From NCBI GenBank assembly GCA_902569245.1, contig CACFTO010000003.1, forward strand, positions 1 to 64,000: a stretch of 64,000 nucleotides of DNA, read 5' to 3'. The position numbers were made by a program, and so were the translations under genes. The notes below the pieces were generated by a model that saw only the letters and a program-made list of their open reading frames with translations, had not been told where the DNA came from and searched no databases. Shown piece after piece: positions 1-8,404 of the stretch. This DNA is from an uncultured Pelagibacteraceae bacterium (GTDB lineage Bacteria; Pseudomonadota; Alphaproteobacteria; Pelagibacterales; Pelagibacteraceae). Position 1 is the stretch's first letter; each line of letters begins with the position of its first letter.

Positions 1-1
1 A

Positions 2-223
2 GGTTATGCCAAGGAAATTAAAAAACGAATTTTATTACACAACAGTTCAAAAGGGGCTAAATTTACCAAGGGAAATTATTGGGAGATTATATATAAAAAA
101 TCCTATAAATCTAAATCTGAAGCAATGAAAGCTGAATATAAATTAAAAAAAAACTATAAATTTAGAGATATATTAAAGAAAAAATATATAGAAAATGAAG
201 ATATCAATATTACTACCTTATAA
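2..223 (+). CDS. GIY-YIG endonuclease domain protein, C-terminal part (5' truncated by window edge)
   Basis: Frame 2 open from the window edge to TAA 221-223: GYAKEIKKRILLHNSSKGAKFTKGNYWEIIYKKSYKSKSEAMKAEYKLKK...; the HNxSKGAKFTKG...SKSEAMKxEYxLKK pattern is typical of stand-alone GIY-YIG proteins. Not in the ORF track. Confidence 0.8.
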   Translation, partial: GYAKEIKKRILLHNSSKGAKFTKGNYWEIIYKKSYKSKSEAMKAEYKLKKNYKFRDILKKKYIENEDINITTL

Positions 224-2306
224 AGAAAATTTTTCTCCTGAGTATGCTGGAGCCGTATCTCTTTTTGTAAAAGACACAACAAAGATAAGTACTTATAAGA
301 AAAGAATTACTGTTTATGGAAATACTGACTATAAAAGAAGATATAATATTAATTATAAAAACTTAAATCTTAAAAAAAAATTTCTTAATAGTACCTCAAA
401 AATATATATCAGCGAATTTTTGAATAACGAAATTAAGTATCCTTCAGATTTGATTGAGGTTCATAATCGTCCAGCTTATGTAAAGCCTATTTATGAAAAA
501 TTAAAAAAAAATATCATACTGTATTATCACAATGATCCTTTATCAATGAGTGGATCTCAATCTGTAAATGAAAGAAAGTATTTATTGAATAAATGTAAGT
601 CTATAATTGTTATTAGTGAATGGATAAAAAAAAGATTATTAAAGGACCTTGATGCAAATGACGATCATCTTCAAAAAATTTTTGTAATTCCTCATTCAAC
701 AAATAAAATAAATAATACAAATCTCATTAAACGTAAGAAAAACTATATTATATTTGTTGGTAAATTAAATTCACAAAAAGGTTATGATATTTTTGGAAAC
801 GTTATAGTTAAAATTTTGAAAAAAAATAAAAATTGGAGAGGTATAGTTATAGGTGATGAAGAAAGAGAAAAATTAGTTTTTAAACATCCCTCCTTGAATG
901 TTATGGGCTTTATTGAACATAATAAAGTTATCAAATTATTTGAAAAATCTAGTATCGCTGTTGTACCGTCTAGATGGGAAGAACCTTTAGGTAGAACTGG
1001 TCTAGAAGCTTCAAGCAGAGGATGTGCCACTATAGTCAGTAACAGAGGTGGTTTGCCAGAAACTGTTACAGATGGAATAATTTTAAAAAAACTTGATGAA
1101 AAAGAATTATATAAAAATATTCAATTTTTAATAAATAATAAAAATTATAGAACTAACTTACAGAGAAGATCTATTATTAATTTTAAGCTTGATCACAAAT
1201 TAATTGCTGAAAAAATTGACAATGTAAGAAAGAAAACATTTAAATATTTTATTTTTAATATTAATAAAAATAGTAAACTTAAGATTGTTCATGTAACTAA
1301 CTTCAATTTTAGATATCATGGAAGATTACATTTTAATACTGGAACAAGGTTAAATAATGGACTTATCAGATTGGGTCATAATGTTTTAAGCTTATCTGAT
1401 AGAGATTTAGTAAGTTTAGGTAAAACACTTACTGATTACACAGGGTCAAAATATTTGAATGAATTAGTTTCAAAAACAATAAATAATTTCAAACCTGATC
1501 TGCTAATCATTGGGCATGCAGACAGAATAGATAAAAATATGCTTTCTGATGTAAAAAATACAAATAAAAATCTTAGGATTTCACAATGGTTTTTAGATCC
1601 TTTATCTAGAAGGGGACCTGATTATCATAAAAATAAAGAAAGAATTCTAGATAAAATAAATTGTGTTGACACTACTTTTGTTACTACCGACCCTAAATCA
1701 TTAGATTTTGAAATTAAAAATTCTTTTTACATGCCAAACCCTTGTGACAAATCTCTTGATAATTTAACAAATTTTAATGAAAAACCTGAGTTTGATATTT
1801 TTTATGCAATAAGTCATGGAGTTCATAGAGGAACCCTTAGAAAAGGGAAAATAGATGAAAGAGAAATTTTTATCAATAAACTTATGAGAAAAAGCAAAAA
1901 TATTAATTATGATATTTATGGTATGTTCAATAGACAACCTATATGGGGTGATGAATTTATAAAAAAAATATCTCATTCCAAGATGGGTCTTAATCTTAGT
2001 AGAGGTGAACCAATTAAATATTACAGTAGTGATAGAATAGCACAATTAATGGGTAATGGTTTACTAACTTTTATTGATAAGAGAACACAGTACAATAATT
2101 TTTTTAACAATAATGAAATGATTTTTTACAATAATATTGATGATTTGGTTGAAAAAATAAATAAATATAAAAACGACACAAAATCTTTAAAAAGAATTGC
2201 AAAAAATGGACATAAAAAATATCATAAATTTTTTAATTCAAATATTGTAGCAAAATTCATAATAGATAAAACGTTTGGTTTAAAAACTAATACTTTTTGG
2301 GAATAA
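195..2306 (+). CDS. Two-part glycosyltransferase (GT4-like N-terminal half, second glycosyltransferase-like C-terminal half)
   Basis: N half has VGKLNSQKGYDIF and VPSRWEEPLGRTGLEASSRGCATIVSNRGGLPETV (GT4/group 1 signature). C half restarts with YHGRLHFNTGTRLNNGLIRLGHNVLSLSDRD and ends with MGLNLSRGEPIKYYSSDRIAQLMGNGLLTFID, as in a second glycosyltransferase-like domain. Confidence 0.8.
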   Translation: MKISILLPYKENFSPEYAGAVSLFVKDTTKISTYKKRITVYGNTDYKRRYNINYKNLNLKKKFLNSTSKIYISEFLNNEIKYPSDLIEVHNRPAYVKPIYEKLKKNIILYYHNDPLSMSGSQSVNERKYLLNKCKSIIVISEWIKKRLLKDLDANDDHLQKIFVIPHSTNKINNTNLIKRKKNYIIFVGKLNSQKGYDIFGNVIVKILKKNKNWRGIVIGDEEREKLVFKHPSLNVMGFIEHNKVIKLFEKSSIAVVPSRWEEPLGRTGLEASSRGCATIVSNRGGLPETVTDGIILKKLDEKELYKNIQFLINNKNYRTNLQRRSIINFKLDHKLIAEKIDNVRKKTFKYFIFNINKNSKLKIVHVTNFNFRYHGRLHFNTGTRLNNGLIRLGHNVLSLSDRDLVSLGKTLTDYTGSKYLNELVSKTINNFKPDLLIIGHADRIDKNMLSDVKNTNKNLRISQWFLDPLSRRGPDYHKNKERILDKINCVDTTFVTTDPKSLDFEIKNSFYMPNPCDKSLDNLTNFNEKPEFDIFYAISHGVHRGTLRKGKIDEREIFINKLMRKSKNINYDIYGMFNRQPIWGDEFIKKISHSKMGLNLSRGEPIKYYSSDRIAQLMGNGLLTFIDKRTQYNNFFNNNEMIFYNNIDDLVEKINKYKNDTKSLKRIAKNGHKKYHKFFNSNIVAKFIIDKTFGLKTNTFWE

Positions 2307-2320
2307 TATTAATAAGGCTG

Positions 2321-3298
2321 ATGAATATATGTTTTGTTGATAATACAAATTTTAAATATGATGGAGATTCTATTTATTCACATAAATTGAGAGGTGCAGA
2401 AAGTGTAGTTATTAACTTATCAAACGCATTAAAAGTTTTAGGACATAAAGTTACAGTAATTAATAATTGTGAAGAAACTAAACAAATTGATGGAGTAAGT
2501 TGGATTGATATAAAATCAATTAAAAAAACTGATGAATTTGATTTTGTTATTGCAAACGGAGATTGTAGATTATTCAAATATGCAAAGTCTAATAAAAATA
2601 TTCTATTTTCGCATAGTTTACAAAGTATAGAAAAATTTTTAAGAAAGAAACAATTGATATCTTATATGAAATATAAACCAAAAGTTTGTTTTCTAAGTAA
2701 TTATCATCAAAAAAATAGATCAAAACTTTTATATATATTTGGCCATATTCATTTAAGGTGGTCAGTTGATGAATTGTTTTTACGTTCAAACCTTTCATCT
2801 GAAATTGATAATAATCTAGCAATCTTTACATCTAGACCAGACAGAAATTTAGAATTACTTATAAATATATGGACAAACTCAATTATTAAGATGAGAGGAA
2901 ATTCAAAATTATTGGTTACAGATAATAATTTTATCTACAAGAACAGCTCAATATCAAAAAGAAAACTAGGAAATCAAAAAGATTTATTAAGAGATTTATT
3001 AAAAGCTAGAATATGTCTTTTACCAGGTCATAAATCTGAGCTTTTTTGTTTAGCCGCCGAAGAAGCTAGAGAGTTATGTGTTCCTATAATTACGCTTGGA
3101 CTAGGATGTTTAGGTGAAAGAGTAGAACATAATACCACAGGATTTATTGCTAAAAATGAACATGAATTTGCTAATTATACTTTAAAGTTATTTTCTGATG
3201 ACGAACTTTGGAATAGATTAAGATTAAACCTTATTAAAAAAAGAAAAACGAATACTTGGAAAAAAGTTGCTGAACAATTAATAGATCAATTGTATTAG
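2321..3298 (+). CDS. Glycosyltransferase family 1/4-like protein
   Basis: MNICFVDNTNFKYDGDSIYSHKLRGAESVVINLSNALKVLGHKVTVI... and LPGHKSELFCLAAEEARELCVPIITLGLGCLGERVEHNTTGFIAKNEHEFA. ORF track starts at a TTG (2297); ATG at 2321 is more likely. Confidence 0.75.
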   Translation: MNICFVDNTNFKYDGDSIYSHKLRGAESVVINLSNALKVLGHKVTVINNCEETKQIDGVSWIDIKSIKKTDEFDFVIANGDCRLFKYAKSNKNILFSHSLQSIEKFLRKKQLISYMKYKPKVCFLSNYHQKNRSKLLYIFGHIHLRWSVDELFLRSNLSSEIDNNLAIFTSRPDRNLELLINIWTNSIIKMRGNSKLLVTDNNFIYKNSSISKRKLGNQKDLLRDLLKARICLLPGHKSELFCLAAEEARELCVPIITLGLGCLGERVEHNTTGFIAKNEHEFANYTLKLFSDDELWNRLRLNLIKKRKTNTWKKVAEQLIDQLY

Positions 3299-3309
3299 AT
3301 ATTTATTAT

Positions 3310-4320
3310 ATGAATAAAAAAAAAAATATATTGGTTGTAGGTGCTGGTGGATTTATTGCTGGACATTTAATAAAAAGATTACTTTTGAATGGTAACAATA
3401 TTATTGCAACTGATATAAAACCAAAAGAGTATTGGTTTCAGGAATTTGACAAAGTTGAAAATCACTATTCTATGGATATGAAACTTCTTGATAACTGTGT
3501 AAAATTAACAAAAAACATCGATTATGTATTTAATATGGCCTGTAATATGGGTGGTATGGGTTTTATTGAAAATAATAAAGCAGAATGTATGCAATCAGTT
3601 TTAATAAATACAAATCTTCTAATTGGTTGCAAAGATAATAGTGTAGAAAAATATTTTTTTTCATCAAGTGCATGCGTATACGATCAATCAAAACAACAAG
3701 ATGTTTTTATTGATGGTTTAAGAGAAAATGATGCTTATCCAGCTGACCCTGAAGATGGGTATGGATGGGAAAAGTTATTTAGTGAAAGAATGTGTAGACA
3801 TTTTATGGAAGATTATGGATTGCAAGTTCGTATTGCTAGATATCATAATATTTATGGACCATTTGGAACATTTGATGGAGGTAGAGAAAAGGCACCCGCA
3901 GCACTTTGTAGAAAAGTGATTAGTTCTAAAATAAACAATAGTAAATCAATTGAAGTCTGGGGTGATGGAAATCAGACTAGATCATTTTTATATGTTGATG
4001 ATTGTATTGATGGAACAATTAAATTATTTGATTCCAACTATTCTGAACCAGTTAATATTGGAAGTGATGAACAGGTTTCAATAAATCAAATGATAGAATT
4101 ATTAGAGGAAATTTCAGAACACAAGGGACTTAAAAAAAAATATCAACTTGATAAACCAAAAGGAGTTAGGGGTAGGTCAAGTAACAATGATTTAGTTAAA
4201 AAAATATTAGGTTGGAATTATCAGATTAAACTAAAAGATGGCTTAATGAAAACTTATGAGTGGATATATTCTGAAATATCAAAAAAAGGGCTTAACTTAA
4301 GTAGGTTTACTCAACCATAA
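3310..4320 (+). CDS. NAD-dependent sugar epimerase (GDP-mannose 3,5-epimerase-like, extended SDR)
   Basis: GAGGFIAGHLIKRLL nucleotide-binding motif, SSSACVYD, YGWEKLFSERM (YxxxK), RYHNIYGPFGTFDGGREKAPAALCRKV. Confidence 0.85.
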   Translation: MNKKKNILVVGAGGFIAGHLIKRLLLNGNNIIATDIKPKEYWFQEFDKVENHYSMDMKLLDNCVKLTKNIDYVFNMACNMGGMGFIENNKAECMQSVLINTNLLIGCKDNSVEKYFFSSSACVYDQSKQQDVFIDGLRENDAYPADPEDGYGWEKLFSERMCRHFMEDYGLQVRIARYHNIYGPFGTFDGGREKAPAALCRKVISSKINNSKSIEVWGDGNQTRSFLYVDDCIDGTIKLFDSNYSEPVNIGSDEQVSINQMIELLEEISEHKGLKKKYQLDKPKGVRGRSSNNDLVKKILGWNYQIKLKDGLMKTYEWIYSEISKKGLNLSRFTQP

Positions 4321-4331
4321 GAATTTAATAA

Positions 4332-5162
4332 ATGAAATTTAAAAAAAAATATTTTAAAAGTTTAAATAAAGAATTATTTAAGGGATTTAATCGATTATAC
4401 TGGTTTCTATACACAGAAGTTAAATATTATTACTTTAAATATAAATTTAAAGATCGTAATGAGTCTAAACAATATAAAATTTCATTACTATTGCCTTCTA
4501 GAGAAAGATCTAAAAAATTCAAAAGGATGCTAGAGTCATTAATTTCAACATGTAGTAATATATCAAGAATTGAACTTTTGATTCTTTTAGATACAGACGA
4601 CAAAGAAAAGATATTATATGAAAGTATTTTGTCAAATAAGAAGTATTCAAATTTAAATCATAAAATTTATTTAAATAATTTATCTTCGCACGCCAAGAGA
4701 AATAATTTTTTGGCGATGAAATCTGTTGGTGATATTTTATTTCCAATAAATGATGATATAACTTTTATTTCAAAACATTGGGATAAAGAAATAGACAATG
4801 AATTTTCAAAAGTTGTTAATCAACCATATTGTCTTTGGGTCGACTCTGGTCAAAAATATTTATACTTACATTCAGATTTTCCAATTGTAAACAAAGAATG
4901 GTATAAAAAACTAGGTTATATAGGTAGTGAATTTTTTAATTTTTGGTACCTAGATACATGGATATGTGATTTATGTCATAGATCAAAAAAATTTTTAATA
5001 TCGAAAAAAATTAAACTTTATCAGTATTCTGCTCATACAATCAAAGAAGAAGTTGACAACACTCATTTAAAGAATATTAAGAACGATATACCCTTAAAAG
5101 ATAAAATCATTTGGAATGAAACTGTTGGACAAAGAATTAAAGATGCAAGATTATTAGTATGA
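4332..5162 (+). CDS. Glycosyltransferase family 2-like protein
   Basis: ISLLLPSRERSKKFKRMLESLIS...LLILLDTDDKE...FPINDDITF resembles GT-A fold glycosyltransferases. Confidence 0.6.
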   Translation: MKFKKKYFKSLNKELFKGFNRLYWFLYTEVKYYYFKYKFKDRNESKQYKISLLLPSRERSKKFKRMLESLISTCSNISRIELLILLDTDDKEKILYESILSNKKYSNLNHKIYLNNLSSHAKRNNFLAMKSVGDILFPINDDITFISKHWDKEIDNEFSKVVNQPYCLWVDSGQKYLYLHSDFPIVNKEWYKKLGYIGSEFFNFWYLDTWICDLCHRSKKFLISKKIKLYQYSAHTIKEEVDNTHLKNIKNDIPLKDKIIWNETVGQRIKDARLLV

Positions 5163-6430
5163 ATATTGGTTTTCTAGGATTGGGAAAGTTAGGTTTACCT
5201 GTAAGTTTGGCTGTTGAAGATAAAGGACATAATATTTTTGGGTACGATATTTCAAAACAAACAATTGAAGATATTAAAAATAGAAAAATTCGTTACAGAG
5301 AAGAATGGGTTGATAAATATTTACCTAAAACAAAATTACAGATTAATAGTATTGGTAATTTGGTAAAAAACTCTGAAATTATATTTGTACCAATTCAAAC
5401 ACCACATGATCCACAATACGAAGGTATTACAAGAATTCCAAAAAAACGAATAGATTTTGATTATTCTTATCTTAAATCTGGTATCAAAGAGTTGTCTCAA
5501 GAAATTGAAAAAAATGGTGAAGATAAAGTTGTAATTATAATTTCAACTGTTTTGCCTGGTACAATTAGAACACAAATTAAACCATTATTGGGTAAGCACA
5601 CTAAACTTTGTTACAATCCTTTTTTTATAGCCATGGGATCAACAATTAGAGATTTTCTTTATCCTGAATTTATTCTTTTTGGTGTTGATGATGAGCATGC
5701 AGCCACTAAAGCTCAAAATTTTTACAAGACAATTTGCGACTCTCCTTTTTATAAAACCACTATAGAAAATGCTGAACTAATTAAAGTTTCTTATAACACA
5801 ATGATATCCACTAAAATTTCTTTTGTTAATACAATAATGGAAGCCTGTCACAAACTACCAAATACTAATGTTGATGATGTTACTAATGCATTAAAGATGG
5901 CAAATAGAAGATTAATTTCAGACGCTTATCTAACAGGTGGAATGGGTGATGGGGGAGGATGTCACCCGAGAGATAATATCGCTTTAAGTCATCTTTCTCA
6001 AAAATTAGATCTTTCTCATGATTGGTTTGAAGATATTATGATGCAAAGAGAAAATCAGTCAGAATGGCTTGCAAATTTAATAATTGAAAATTCTGAAAAT
6101 AGACAGATTAATATTTTAGGTAAAACTTTTAAACCTGAGACAAATTTAATCTTAGGAAGTCCAGCTTTACTATTAGAAAATATTTTAAAAGAAAAACAAA
6201 AAAAGGTTTACTCTTGGGATCCTTATGTTGATGAAAATTATGACAATGTATGTGATAATCTAAATTGGACAAACAACGATATTAAACATGTTTTTTTCAT
6301 AGGTACGAAACATCCTGATTTTATAAAATTTAATTATCCAAAAAATTCTATTATTATTGATCCTTTTAGATATATTTATAATGTTAAAGATTCAAAAATT
6401 ATTAGAATTGGAGATAATACTAACAAATAA
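5159..6430 (+). CDS. NDP-sugar (UDP-glucose/GDP-mannose type) 6-dehydrogenase family protein
   Basis: MNIGFLGLGKLGLPVSLAVEDKGHNIFGYD Rossmann motif; ENAELIKVSYNTMISTKISFVNTIMEAC; GGCHPRDNIAL; NILGKTFKPETNLILGSPALLL. Confidence 0.8.
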   Translation: MNIGFLGLGKLGLPVSLAVEDKGHNIFGYDISKQTIEDIKNRKIRYREEWVDKYLPKTKLQINSIGNLVKNSEIIFVPIQTPHDPQYEGITRIPKKRIDFDYSYLKSGIKELSQEIEKNGEDKVVIIISTVLPGTIRTQIKPLLGKHTKLCYNPFFIAMGSTIRDFLYPEFILFGVDDEHAATKAQNFYKTICDSPFYKTTIENAELIKVSYNTMISTKISFVNTIMEACHKLPNTNVDDVTNALKMANRRLISDAYLTGGMGDGGGCHPRDNIALSHLSQKLDLSHDWFEDIMMQRENQSEWLANLIIENSENRQINILGKTFKPETNLILGSPALLLENILKEKQKKVYSWDPYVDENYDNVCDNLNWTNNDIKHVFFIGTKHPDFIKFNYPKNSIIIDPFRYIYNVKDSKIIRIGDNTNK

Positions 6431-7384
6431 TTATATCTTTACTTTATTAAGTGCATTATTTTTAAATATATTTGCTTCTCTTATATATCTTCTAACCATT
6501 TGAGTTGTTTTATGGCCTGTCATCGCCATTATGCTTCTTTCGTCTGCACCAGACTCAGCTGCTACTGTTGCAAAACCAGACCTTAAACTATGACCAGCAA
6601 AATTTTTGTTTTCTATTCCTGCTAAATCTAAATACTTTTTCATTAATAAAACTACAGTTTGGTCTGTTAATCTTTTTTCAGTTAAAAATGATCCCTTGGA
6701 GAATCTTCTAAAAATAGGTCCAGACCTTATTTTAGAAATATCTAACCATTTTTTTAAATTAACAACAGGGCAAAAGTTTTCATTAGTGAAGTAGGGTAAT
6801 CCTTTAATCATTCCTTCACCAAATTGATCGGTTTTTGATCTTTTAATTGTGATTTTGAGACCTTCAGGTACAAATTCTAAATCTTCATGATCAATTGATA
6901 TAAGTTCAGTCCGTCTAAAACCACCTCCAAAACCTACCAAGATGATTGTCTTATCTCTAAATTTCCTAATATCATCAATATTTTGTTCATTTATTACATT
7001 AATTATTGATTTTAAATGATTGATTAATAATGGTTTTTTACCTTTTTGAATACTTCCTTTAACTCTTTTTATTCCCATTAAATTCTCAACAATAATTGGA
7101 TGTTTTGAATCAAAGTAATGCCCTTTTAGTTTATGAACCATACTTATTGACACCAGTCGTCTTCTTAAAGTACTAATTTTTGAATTTTTAGAAAGATGGG
7201 TTAGGTATAAAGATACAATTTTAGGCTCTGAGGGTAATGAATTTAGTCCGTGTTTAGCACAAAAAGCTCCAAAATCTTTAAAGTCTGATTTATAAGCCCT
7301 TAGAGTATTATTTGCTTTAGAACTTTTGAGGTTATTTAAAGTAGACTCATGAAGCGATTTTAGATCTGTAGTTAGTTCACTCAT
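6431..7384 (-). CDS. Tyrosine recombinase / site-specific integrase
   Basis: Catalytic residues visible: GGGFRRTELISI (Arg I), HSLRSGFAT (HxxR), TGHKTTQMVRRYIREA (His and Tyr). N-terminal SAM-like DNA-binding region precedes. Confidence 0.9.
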   Translation of the reverse strand: MSELTTDLKSLHESTLNNLKSSKANNTLRAYKSDFKDFGAFCAKHGLNSLPSEPKIVSLYLTHLSKNSKISTLRRRLVSISMVHKLKGHYFDSKHPIIVENLMGIKRVKGSIQKGKKPLLINHLKSIINVINEQNIDDIRKFRDKTIILVGFGGGFRRTELISIDHEDLEFVPEGLKITIKRSKTDQFGEGMIKGLPYFTNENFCPVVNLKKWLDISKIRSGPIFRRFSKGSFLTEKRLTDQTVVLLMKKYLDLAGIENKNFAGHSLRSGFATVAAESGADERSIMAMTGHKTTQMVRRYIREANIFKNNALNKVKI

Positions 7385-7389
7385 ATAAT

Positions 7390-7420
7390 TACTAATGATA
7401 ACAATTAATTATCAATAGTA
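7390..7420. repeat. Imperfect inverted repeat, 12-bp arms with 7-bp spacer, directly upstream of the integrase start
   Basis: TACTAATGATAA-CAATTAA-TTATCAATAGTA; the arms are complementary at 11 of 12 positions. Confidence 0.8.
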
Positions 7421-7469
7421 ATAATATAACTCATTTAACAAGTCAAGCATTTAATGTAGAAGAATATTC

Positions 7470-8114: not shown

Positions 8115-8221
8115 AGCTTTAGATTAAGTTATCCCCACTATTCTACCCTGTTAAAAAATGAGTATATTCAACGATAAAGTGATACATACAACCTACTCTA
8201 TTTGATATTGTAGAAAATGAA

Positions 8222-8404
8222 TTAAGAGGCAACTCTTAACTGACCAGCTAGGGAAAAACCGAGAGGTTCAAGCCTAGAGGGCAGAAAGCTCTACAGAGTA
8301 GCGCTAAAATTGTAGGGTGGACGGCATGGCGGTAGCGCATACAACGACGTGCCAAAAACTACTGTTCTTTGTGCCTGAAAAGGTACAAGGAAACAGGGTT
8401 TTTT
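8222..8404 (+). ncRNA. Candidate structured RNA (stand-alone ncRNA or leader of ogt)
   Basis: TTAAGAG-GCAA-CTCTTAA (8222-8239); CTAGG...CCTAG (8248-8252/8273-8277) enclosing AACC-GAGA-GGTT (8257-8268); GCGCTA/TAGCGC (8301-8306/8333-8338); TTGTA/TACAA (8310-8314/8340-8344); GGCATG/CGTGCC (8323-8328/8348-8353); final 14-bp hairpin plus T6. Locally G/C-rich against an AT-rich background. Confidence 0.7.
8362..8404 (+). terminator. Intrinsic terminator-like hairpin with T tract
   Basis: CTGTT-CTTTGTGCC-TGAAAA-GGTACAAGG-A-AACAG, then GG TTTTTT (8399-8404). 9 bp stem (two G-U) extended by 5 bp past a one-base bulge. Confidence 0.75.

Follow-up and report, generated by a model that had tools for sequence, protein, structure and literature searches.

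A candidate dif-equivalent recombination site adjoining a single tyrosine recombinase gene in SAR11 bacteria

Results

The locus and its inverted repeat

The window analysed here is a 64,000-nucleotide stretch of DNA from an uncultured Pelagibacteraceae bacterium (GenBank assembly GCA_902569245.1, contig CACFTO010000003.1). It carries a gene for a tyrosine recombinase (int; Table 1), and a short inverted repeat lies in the intergenic space between int and the next gene. The first-pass annotation had described a 12-7-12 inverted repeat with 11 of 12 arm positions complementary, and the sequence at 7390-7420, TACTAATGATAA-CAATTAA-TTATCAATAGTA, agrees with that description. The repeat does adjoin the int start codon (ATG at 7384), but the distance had been given as 6 bp and the gap is five bases (7385-7389). 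Two further pairs (7389/7421 and 7388/7422) extend the arms to 14 bp and the site to 35 bp, with 13 of 14 pairs complementary. At 31-35 bp, the site is AT-rich (5 G/C in 31 bp) and has a 7-bp spacer.

Taken alone, the symmetry of this dyad is no more than chance would produce in a window so rich in A and T (27.8% GC). A search for 12-bp arms with at most one mismatch and a spacer of 4-10 bp returned 11 matches in the window (a count that includes overlapping registers), against 5-12 in Markov-shuffled windows. The case for a site must therefore be carried by conservation.

Table 1. Coordinates of the recombinase gene, the proposed site and its predicted promoter elements in the window, and of related sites in viral contigs (contig handles precede the positions)
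Feature	Position	Strand	Basis or remark
Tyrosine recombinase gene (int), 317 aa, PF00589 + PF02899	6431..7384	-	Pfam
Proposed dif-like recombination site, 35 bp, 14-bp arms	7388..7422	.	Pairing, core conservation, single copy
int-proximal arm, int strand TTATCATTAGTA	7390..7401	.	Window sequence
Asymmetric 7-bp spacer, int strand TTAATTG, presumed crossover region	7402..7408	.	Spacer conservation in host loci
int-distal arm, int strand TACTATTGATAA	7409..7420	.	Window sequence
Proposed -10 region of int, TATTAC, within int-distal arm	7418..7423	-	Predicted from 17-bp spacing to the -35 box
Proposed -35 box of int, TTGACT	7441..7446	-	Conserved TTGAC spacing
Pelagiphage-type site copies	L322 4149-4179; L323 13659-13689; L324 1780-1810; L349 4246-4278; L339 5318-5380		Beside large terminase gene
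Viral contigs with distant recombinase relatives and an upstream dyad (L413, L450, L395, L449, L386, L412, L402, L441, L414, L393, L381)			

Conservation and arm types

A GATAA-N7-TTATC core precedes the recombinase gene in 213 of the 213 related loci with upstream DNA, which represent 121 distinct 45-mers and include repeats from the same genome, and so are not a count of independent events. The loci come from at least eight SAR11 genera, with proteins down to ~53% identity. Conservation upstream of orthologous integrases, whose absence had been named beforehand as grounds for dropping the site, is present throughout. The spacer at these host loci is TTAATTG in 165 cases and TTAATGG in 43, with five others.

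The sites fall into two types by their outer arms. Type I sites, the majority class, have ACTAnY outer arms; type II sites pair TTCC on one side with GGAA on the opposite side, and were found in genera g6, g7, g8, g10, g11, g12, g15 and part of g1. The outer arms co-vary between types, and all distinct sites (100%) are symmetric at the pair 8 bp from the spacer, compared with 66% expected from column make-up. The pair 6 bp from the spacer is often mispaired (symmetric in only 69%). Among the SAR11 proteins compared, a 12-aa insert in the recombinase was present in 7/7 with type I sites and 0/13 with type II, a correlation on a shared tree that is not strict among viral relatives. Loci L315 and L316, from two genomes of genus g12, have different arm types, each with the matching form of the recombinase. 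This pattern suggests that site and gene are exchanged as one unit.

Copy number and position at the replication terminus

Of 300 genus genomes, 196 contain the 17-bp core, each exactly once, and none contains a reversed control. Eight of 44 near-complete genomes had no exact core; the genomes without it are consistent in part with incomplete assemblies. A search of the window's own genome at up to three mismatches returned no second copy of the site.

In five single-contig genomes from three genera, the site coincides with, or lies close to, the switch in GC skew that indicates the replication terminus. When candidate termini were ranked with a two-breakpoint GC-skew fit, sampling ~30% of each sequence, the position of the site came 1/269 in G012, 1/288 in G122 and 3/240 in G337, and, in further genera, 2/243 in G347 (genus g12) and 1/257 in G378 (genus g15); the relatedness of the genomes means that these fits are not independent, and SAR11 skew is weak and noisy. 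The best-fit terminus in G337 was at 730 kb, with the site at 675 kb. Within the window, GC skew was +0.134 in the first 8-kb bin and below zero in each of the seven that follow, and the per-base cumulative skew reached its maximum at 18.2 kb. The KOPS-type motif GGGNAGG, a candidate for guiding FtsK, pointed toward the site in a ratio of 64:24, which ranks 6th of 30 motifs of the same composition, other G/A-rich words also pointing there.

Glycosyltransferase and nucleotide-sugar genes (window 1-6430), possibly a surface-sugar variable region, directly adjoin the terminus site. An IMES-2 structured RNA (RF02035, 160.9 bits) lies at 8215-8355 on the + strand, ~0.8 kb from the site, and IMES-2 was also near the recombinase in 8/10 related loci scanned.

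A single divergent recombinase

Named matches of the recombinase belong to Pelagibacteraceae, i.e. SAR11, and its catalytic residues (R158, K184, H265, R268, H291 and Y300) are invariant in two alignments. Most genomes of the genus have a single orthologue, at 60-93% identity. At the family level, the recombinase was present in 90/102 genomes at least 90% complete and in 13/14 genera. It was found in all 11 single-contig SAR11 genomes checked (four genera), as the sole PF00589 protein in eight and with one extra in three. No tyrosine recombinase was found in G350 (99% complete, 20 contigs) or G357 (96%, 60 contigs), which may be due to an assembly gap or to real loss. The window's own genome (75% complete) contains a second, weak PF00589 protein (G000:C2:96138-96692, 43 bits, in a 556-aa frame) that is unlike the conserved recombinase.

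XerC and XerD are absent from SAR11. The SAR11 recombinase scored 70.4 bits on the XerD model (cut-off 329.6), 60.8 on XerC (cut-off 335.15) and 42.5 on XerS (cut-off 267). Members of the sister family in the same order mostly have two recombinases, and two examples came near the equivalog cut-offs (XerD, 326.1 of 329.6; XerC, 314.8 of 335.15). In a phylogenetic tree, the SAR11 recombinases and their viral relatives split from the sister-family XerC and XerD with full support; the viral relatives may be either ancestral or derived. In strain HTCC1062, SAR11_1019 is annotated as xerD (PMC5069961), and xerD and recA have been reported to be up in the light (PMC3090418). We infer that SAR11_1019 is the orthologue of the window recombinase.

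The predicted structure of the recombinase, from a model based on 16 sequences, had a pLDDT of 79.6 and a pTM of 0.63. The top 30 Foldseek matches were all Cre or Tre (TM 0.69-0.76), with XerH next (0.60). By phmmer, Cre and Tre chains matched at 3.5e-05 or worse, and Xer chains did slightly better (best 3.9e-08). FtsK was found in 10/10 genomes checked, and its gamma domain (PF09397) in both of the two tested (9.3e-26 and 3.4e-27).

Related sites in phages

In three viral contigs that lack this recombinase, the full site is located between terminase genes. Scanning for the arms only, we found type I sites in 91 contigs, compared with 7 for a reversed control, and type II sites in at least 120 stretches; these counts are not independent, as many of the contigs are closely related. 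Phage sites are often tandem, with type I and type II dyads together. When spacers of 5-9 bp were allowed, the matches listed had spacers of 7 bp (143), 6 bp (40) or 8 bp (20), and none of 5 or 9 bp. Also among the matches listed, the site was at most 1 kb upstream of the large terminase gene in 95 of the 101 contigs with a recognisable one. Most phage spacers are unlike those of the host; 16 of 47 distinct 7-bp spacers match at five or more positions, against ~10% for random spacers. The host spacer TTAATTG itself was found in several phage contigs.

The nearest cultured phages are HTVC010P-type pelagiphages. Recognisable sites were present in HTVC106P, Greip, HTVC100P and HTVC035P, and other phages were intermediate; HTVC010P, HTVC203P, HTVC204P and HTVC028P had no site above the shuffled level. 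Phages related to HTVC010P have been called lytic for want of an integrase (PMC6811365).

Genes for distant relatives of the recombinase (25-40% identity) are present in other viral contigs. Just upstream of these genes we found TTCCGATAA-N6/7-TTATCGGAA, in 11 cases from about five distinct groups. Because the contigs were retrieved through the dyad rather than through the gene, its association with the gene supports a role for the dyad as recognition site of this recombinase group. The arrangement hints at a possible common phage ancestor of the SAR11 module and these viral relatives.

Overlap with the predicted promoter

The site is predicted to overlap the recombinase gene's own promoter. 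In 159/159 distinct upstream sequences, a TTGAC box starts 32-34 bp upstream of GATAA (151 at exactly 33), compared with 6 in shuffled sequences. At type II loci, TATAAT occupies the -10 position inside the arm, again with 17-bp spacing. Across loci, the commonest position of the start codon is ~12 bp past the dyad core. A promoter scanner gave no int promoter in the window because the -10 region is weak; the case for this promoter rests on the conserved -35 spacing. With the -10 region inside an arm and the -35 box just outside, a recombinase bound at the site would cover its own promoter.

Discussion

A proposed dimer resolution system in SAR11

We consider it likely that SAR11 (Pelagibacteraceae) resolves chromosome dimers with a single recombinase and that the repeat is the core site at which this enzyme acts, a predicted equivalent of dif with autoregulation. 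This is the simplest account of the conservation of the site, its copy number, its position at the terminus, the sole recombinase and the phage mimics. In the proposed mechanism, the adjacent Cre/Xer-like tyrosine recombinase would bind the site as two monomers, one on each arm. After replication, the two sister copies of the site would synapse at the terminus, probably under the control of FtsK, and strand exchange across the asymmetric 7-bp spacer would turn a chromosome dimer into two monomers. The recombinase bound at the site would also repress its own gene, since one arm contains the -10 region and the -35 box lies a short way beyond the site. The first-pass annotation had raised both a tyrosine recombinase core site and an autoregulatory operator overlapping the promoter. 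Both suggestions hold up well, the former through conservation upstream of orthologues and the latter through the fixed distance of the -35-like box from the core and the -10 region in the arm.

The repeat could instead be an operator only, bound by the recombinase or by a repressor, with recombination taking place elsewhere. The promoter geometry fits this explanation, with a -35 box at a constant distance of 32-34 bp from the core, a -10 region within one arm and a start codon most often ~12 bp past the core. However, an operator would leave unexplained why the site is found at the skew switch in three genera, why phages carry copies with no neighbouring recombinase gene and why spacers are restricted to 6-8 bp. 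Moreover, no other site sharing this core came to light as a candidate for recombination elsewhere. We therefore regard an operator without a recombination function as unlikely.

It is more doubtful still that the repeat serves an integrated element as its attachment core, with the neighbouring gene as the integrase, as the first-pass annotation had also proposed. The genes on the left side of the window are of the glycosyltransferase type, as in variable islands, and a comparable dyad precedes the distantly related recombinase genes in viral contigs, so a phage origin of the module is possible. Yet the recombinase is near-universal in the family (the 90/102 genomes and 13/14 genera above) and sits at the terminus, and each of the 196 genomes with a match has the core once. 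The suggested check for second copies flanking variable islands was run and found none, nor was there a flanking repeat within three mismatches in the window's own genome. A dif site predicts the lack of a second copy, because its partner is on the sister chromosome. Single copy and family-wide presence led us to reject the attachment remnant.

A third explanation, of similarly low probability, is that the dyad forms an RNA hairpin in the leader of the recombinase mRNA and tunes its translation. The sequence folds well (-9.4 to -12.7 kcal/mol, in three cases out of three more stably than any of the 200 shuffles), and symmetric arm changes would preserve an RNA stem too. The position of the promoter makes such a hairpin unlikely despite this folding: if the conserved box is the -35, the transcript would begin within the dyad and lack the upstream arm. 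The common mispairs 6 bp from the spacer and the phage copies away from any such recombinase gene also count against a hairpin. Finally, a chance palindrome in AT-rich DNA agrees with the chance-level symmetry in the window, but is ruled out for practical purposes by the conservation of the core at 213/213 loci with proteins down to ~53% identity.

Returning to the proposed resolution system, 'Ca. Pelagibacter ubique' has been reported to be without a dif/Xer system (Carnoy and Roten, PMC2731167). The authors of that study asked what replaces dif/Xer in bacteria of this kind and noted that there was no evidence of a Cre/loxP-like system in them. We found no paper describing the SAR11 site in the open-access literature. 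SAR11 are among the most abundant bacteria on Earth, and this locus is a concrete candidate for their missing resolution system, making the question of what replaces dif directly testable. The site would also serve as a sequence landmark of the SAR11 terminus and might account for the host-like sites in pelagiphages. One idea, which we put forward tentatively and do not quite favour, is that integrase-less pelagiphages use the host recombinase in trans at the tandem dif-type sites (type I next to type II arms) that they carry a few hundred bases upstream of the large terminase gene, integrating at dif if the spacer matches and otherwise resolving or circularising their own genomes. If true, phages called strictly lytic would depend on their host's chromosome-resolution enzyme.

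Comparison with known systems

XerCD/dif resembles the SAR11 system in its terminus position, its low GC and the presence of FtsK with a gamma domain. It differs in using two recombinases rather than one and in its arms, and the SAR11 protein is far below the XerC and XerD cut-offs. Closer in organization are XerH/difH (Helicobacter, Campylobacter) and XerS/difSL (streptococci, lactococci), which like SAR11 have one recombinase and an AT-rich terminus dyad, with the site often beside the gene (PMC2731167). By inspection, the difH consensus TGAAAAC..TTTTCAAA (PMC2731167) is absent from the SAR11 site. The SAR11 recombinase is shorter than XerS and XerH (317 aa versus 353-363) and falls well below the XerS cut-off (42.5 bits of 267), and its site overlaps the promoter of the gene, unlike in these two systems.

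Cre/loxP shares with SAR11 the closest solved fold, near-symmetric arms, an asymmetric spacer and the use of one recombinase, and in E. coli dif can be substituted by Cre/loxP placed at the terminus (as cited in PMC2731167). The arm sequence is different, however, and Cre has 16-19% identity to the SAR11 recombinase in structural alignments. By phmmer, the homology is too distant for the protein to be filed as Cre. In addition, the SAR11 site is chromosomal and single-copy, whereas loxP belongs to a phage-plasmid.

The phage contigs resemble Xer-exploiting integrative elements such as LME-1 in having the arms of the host site without this recombinase. Unlike in elements of that type, most of their spacers differ from the host's and no integrated copy was seen, and their sites lie next to the terminase gene, where type I and type II arms often occur in tandem.

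XerL/dif of the Legionellales also comes from a clade thought to be without dif/Xer, and combines a single divergent recombinase with a strongly palindromic terminus site that is mimicked by a mobile element (PMC9765430). Legionella dif and xerL are >400 kb apart (PMC9765430), whereas the SAR11 site and gene adjoin. XerL has been tested by experiment; the SAR11 system is likened to it by description and is known here from sequence. The kind of system we propose is already known, and the SAR11 candidate is a new variant of it in a clade reported to lack dif/Xer.
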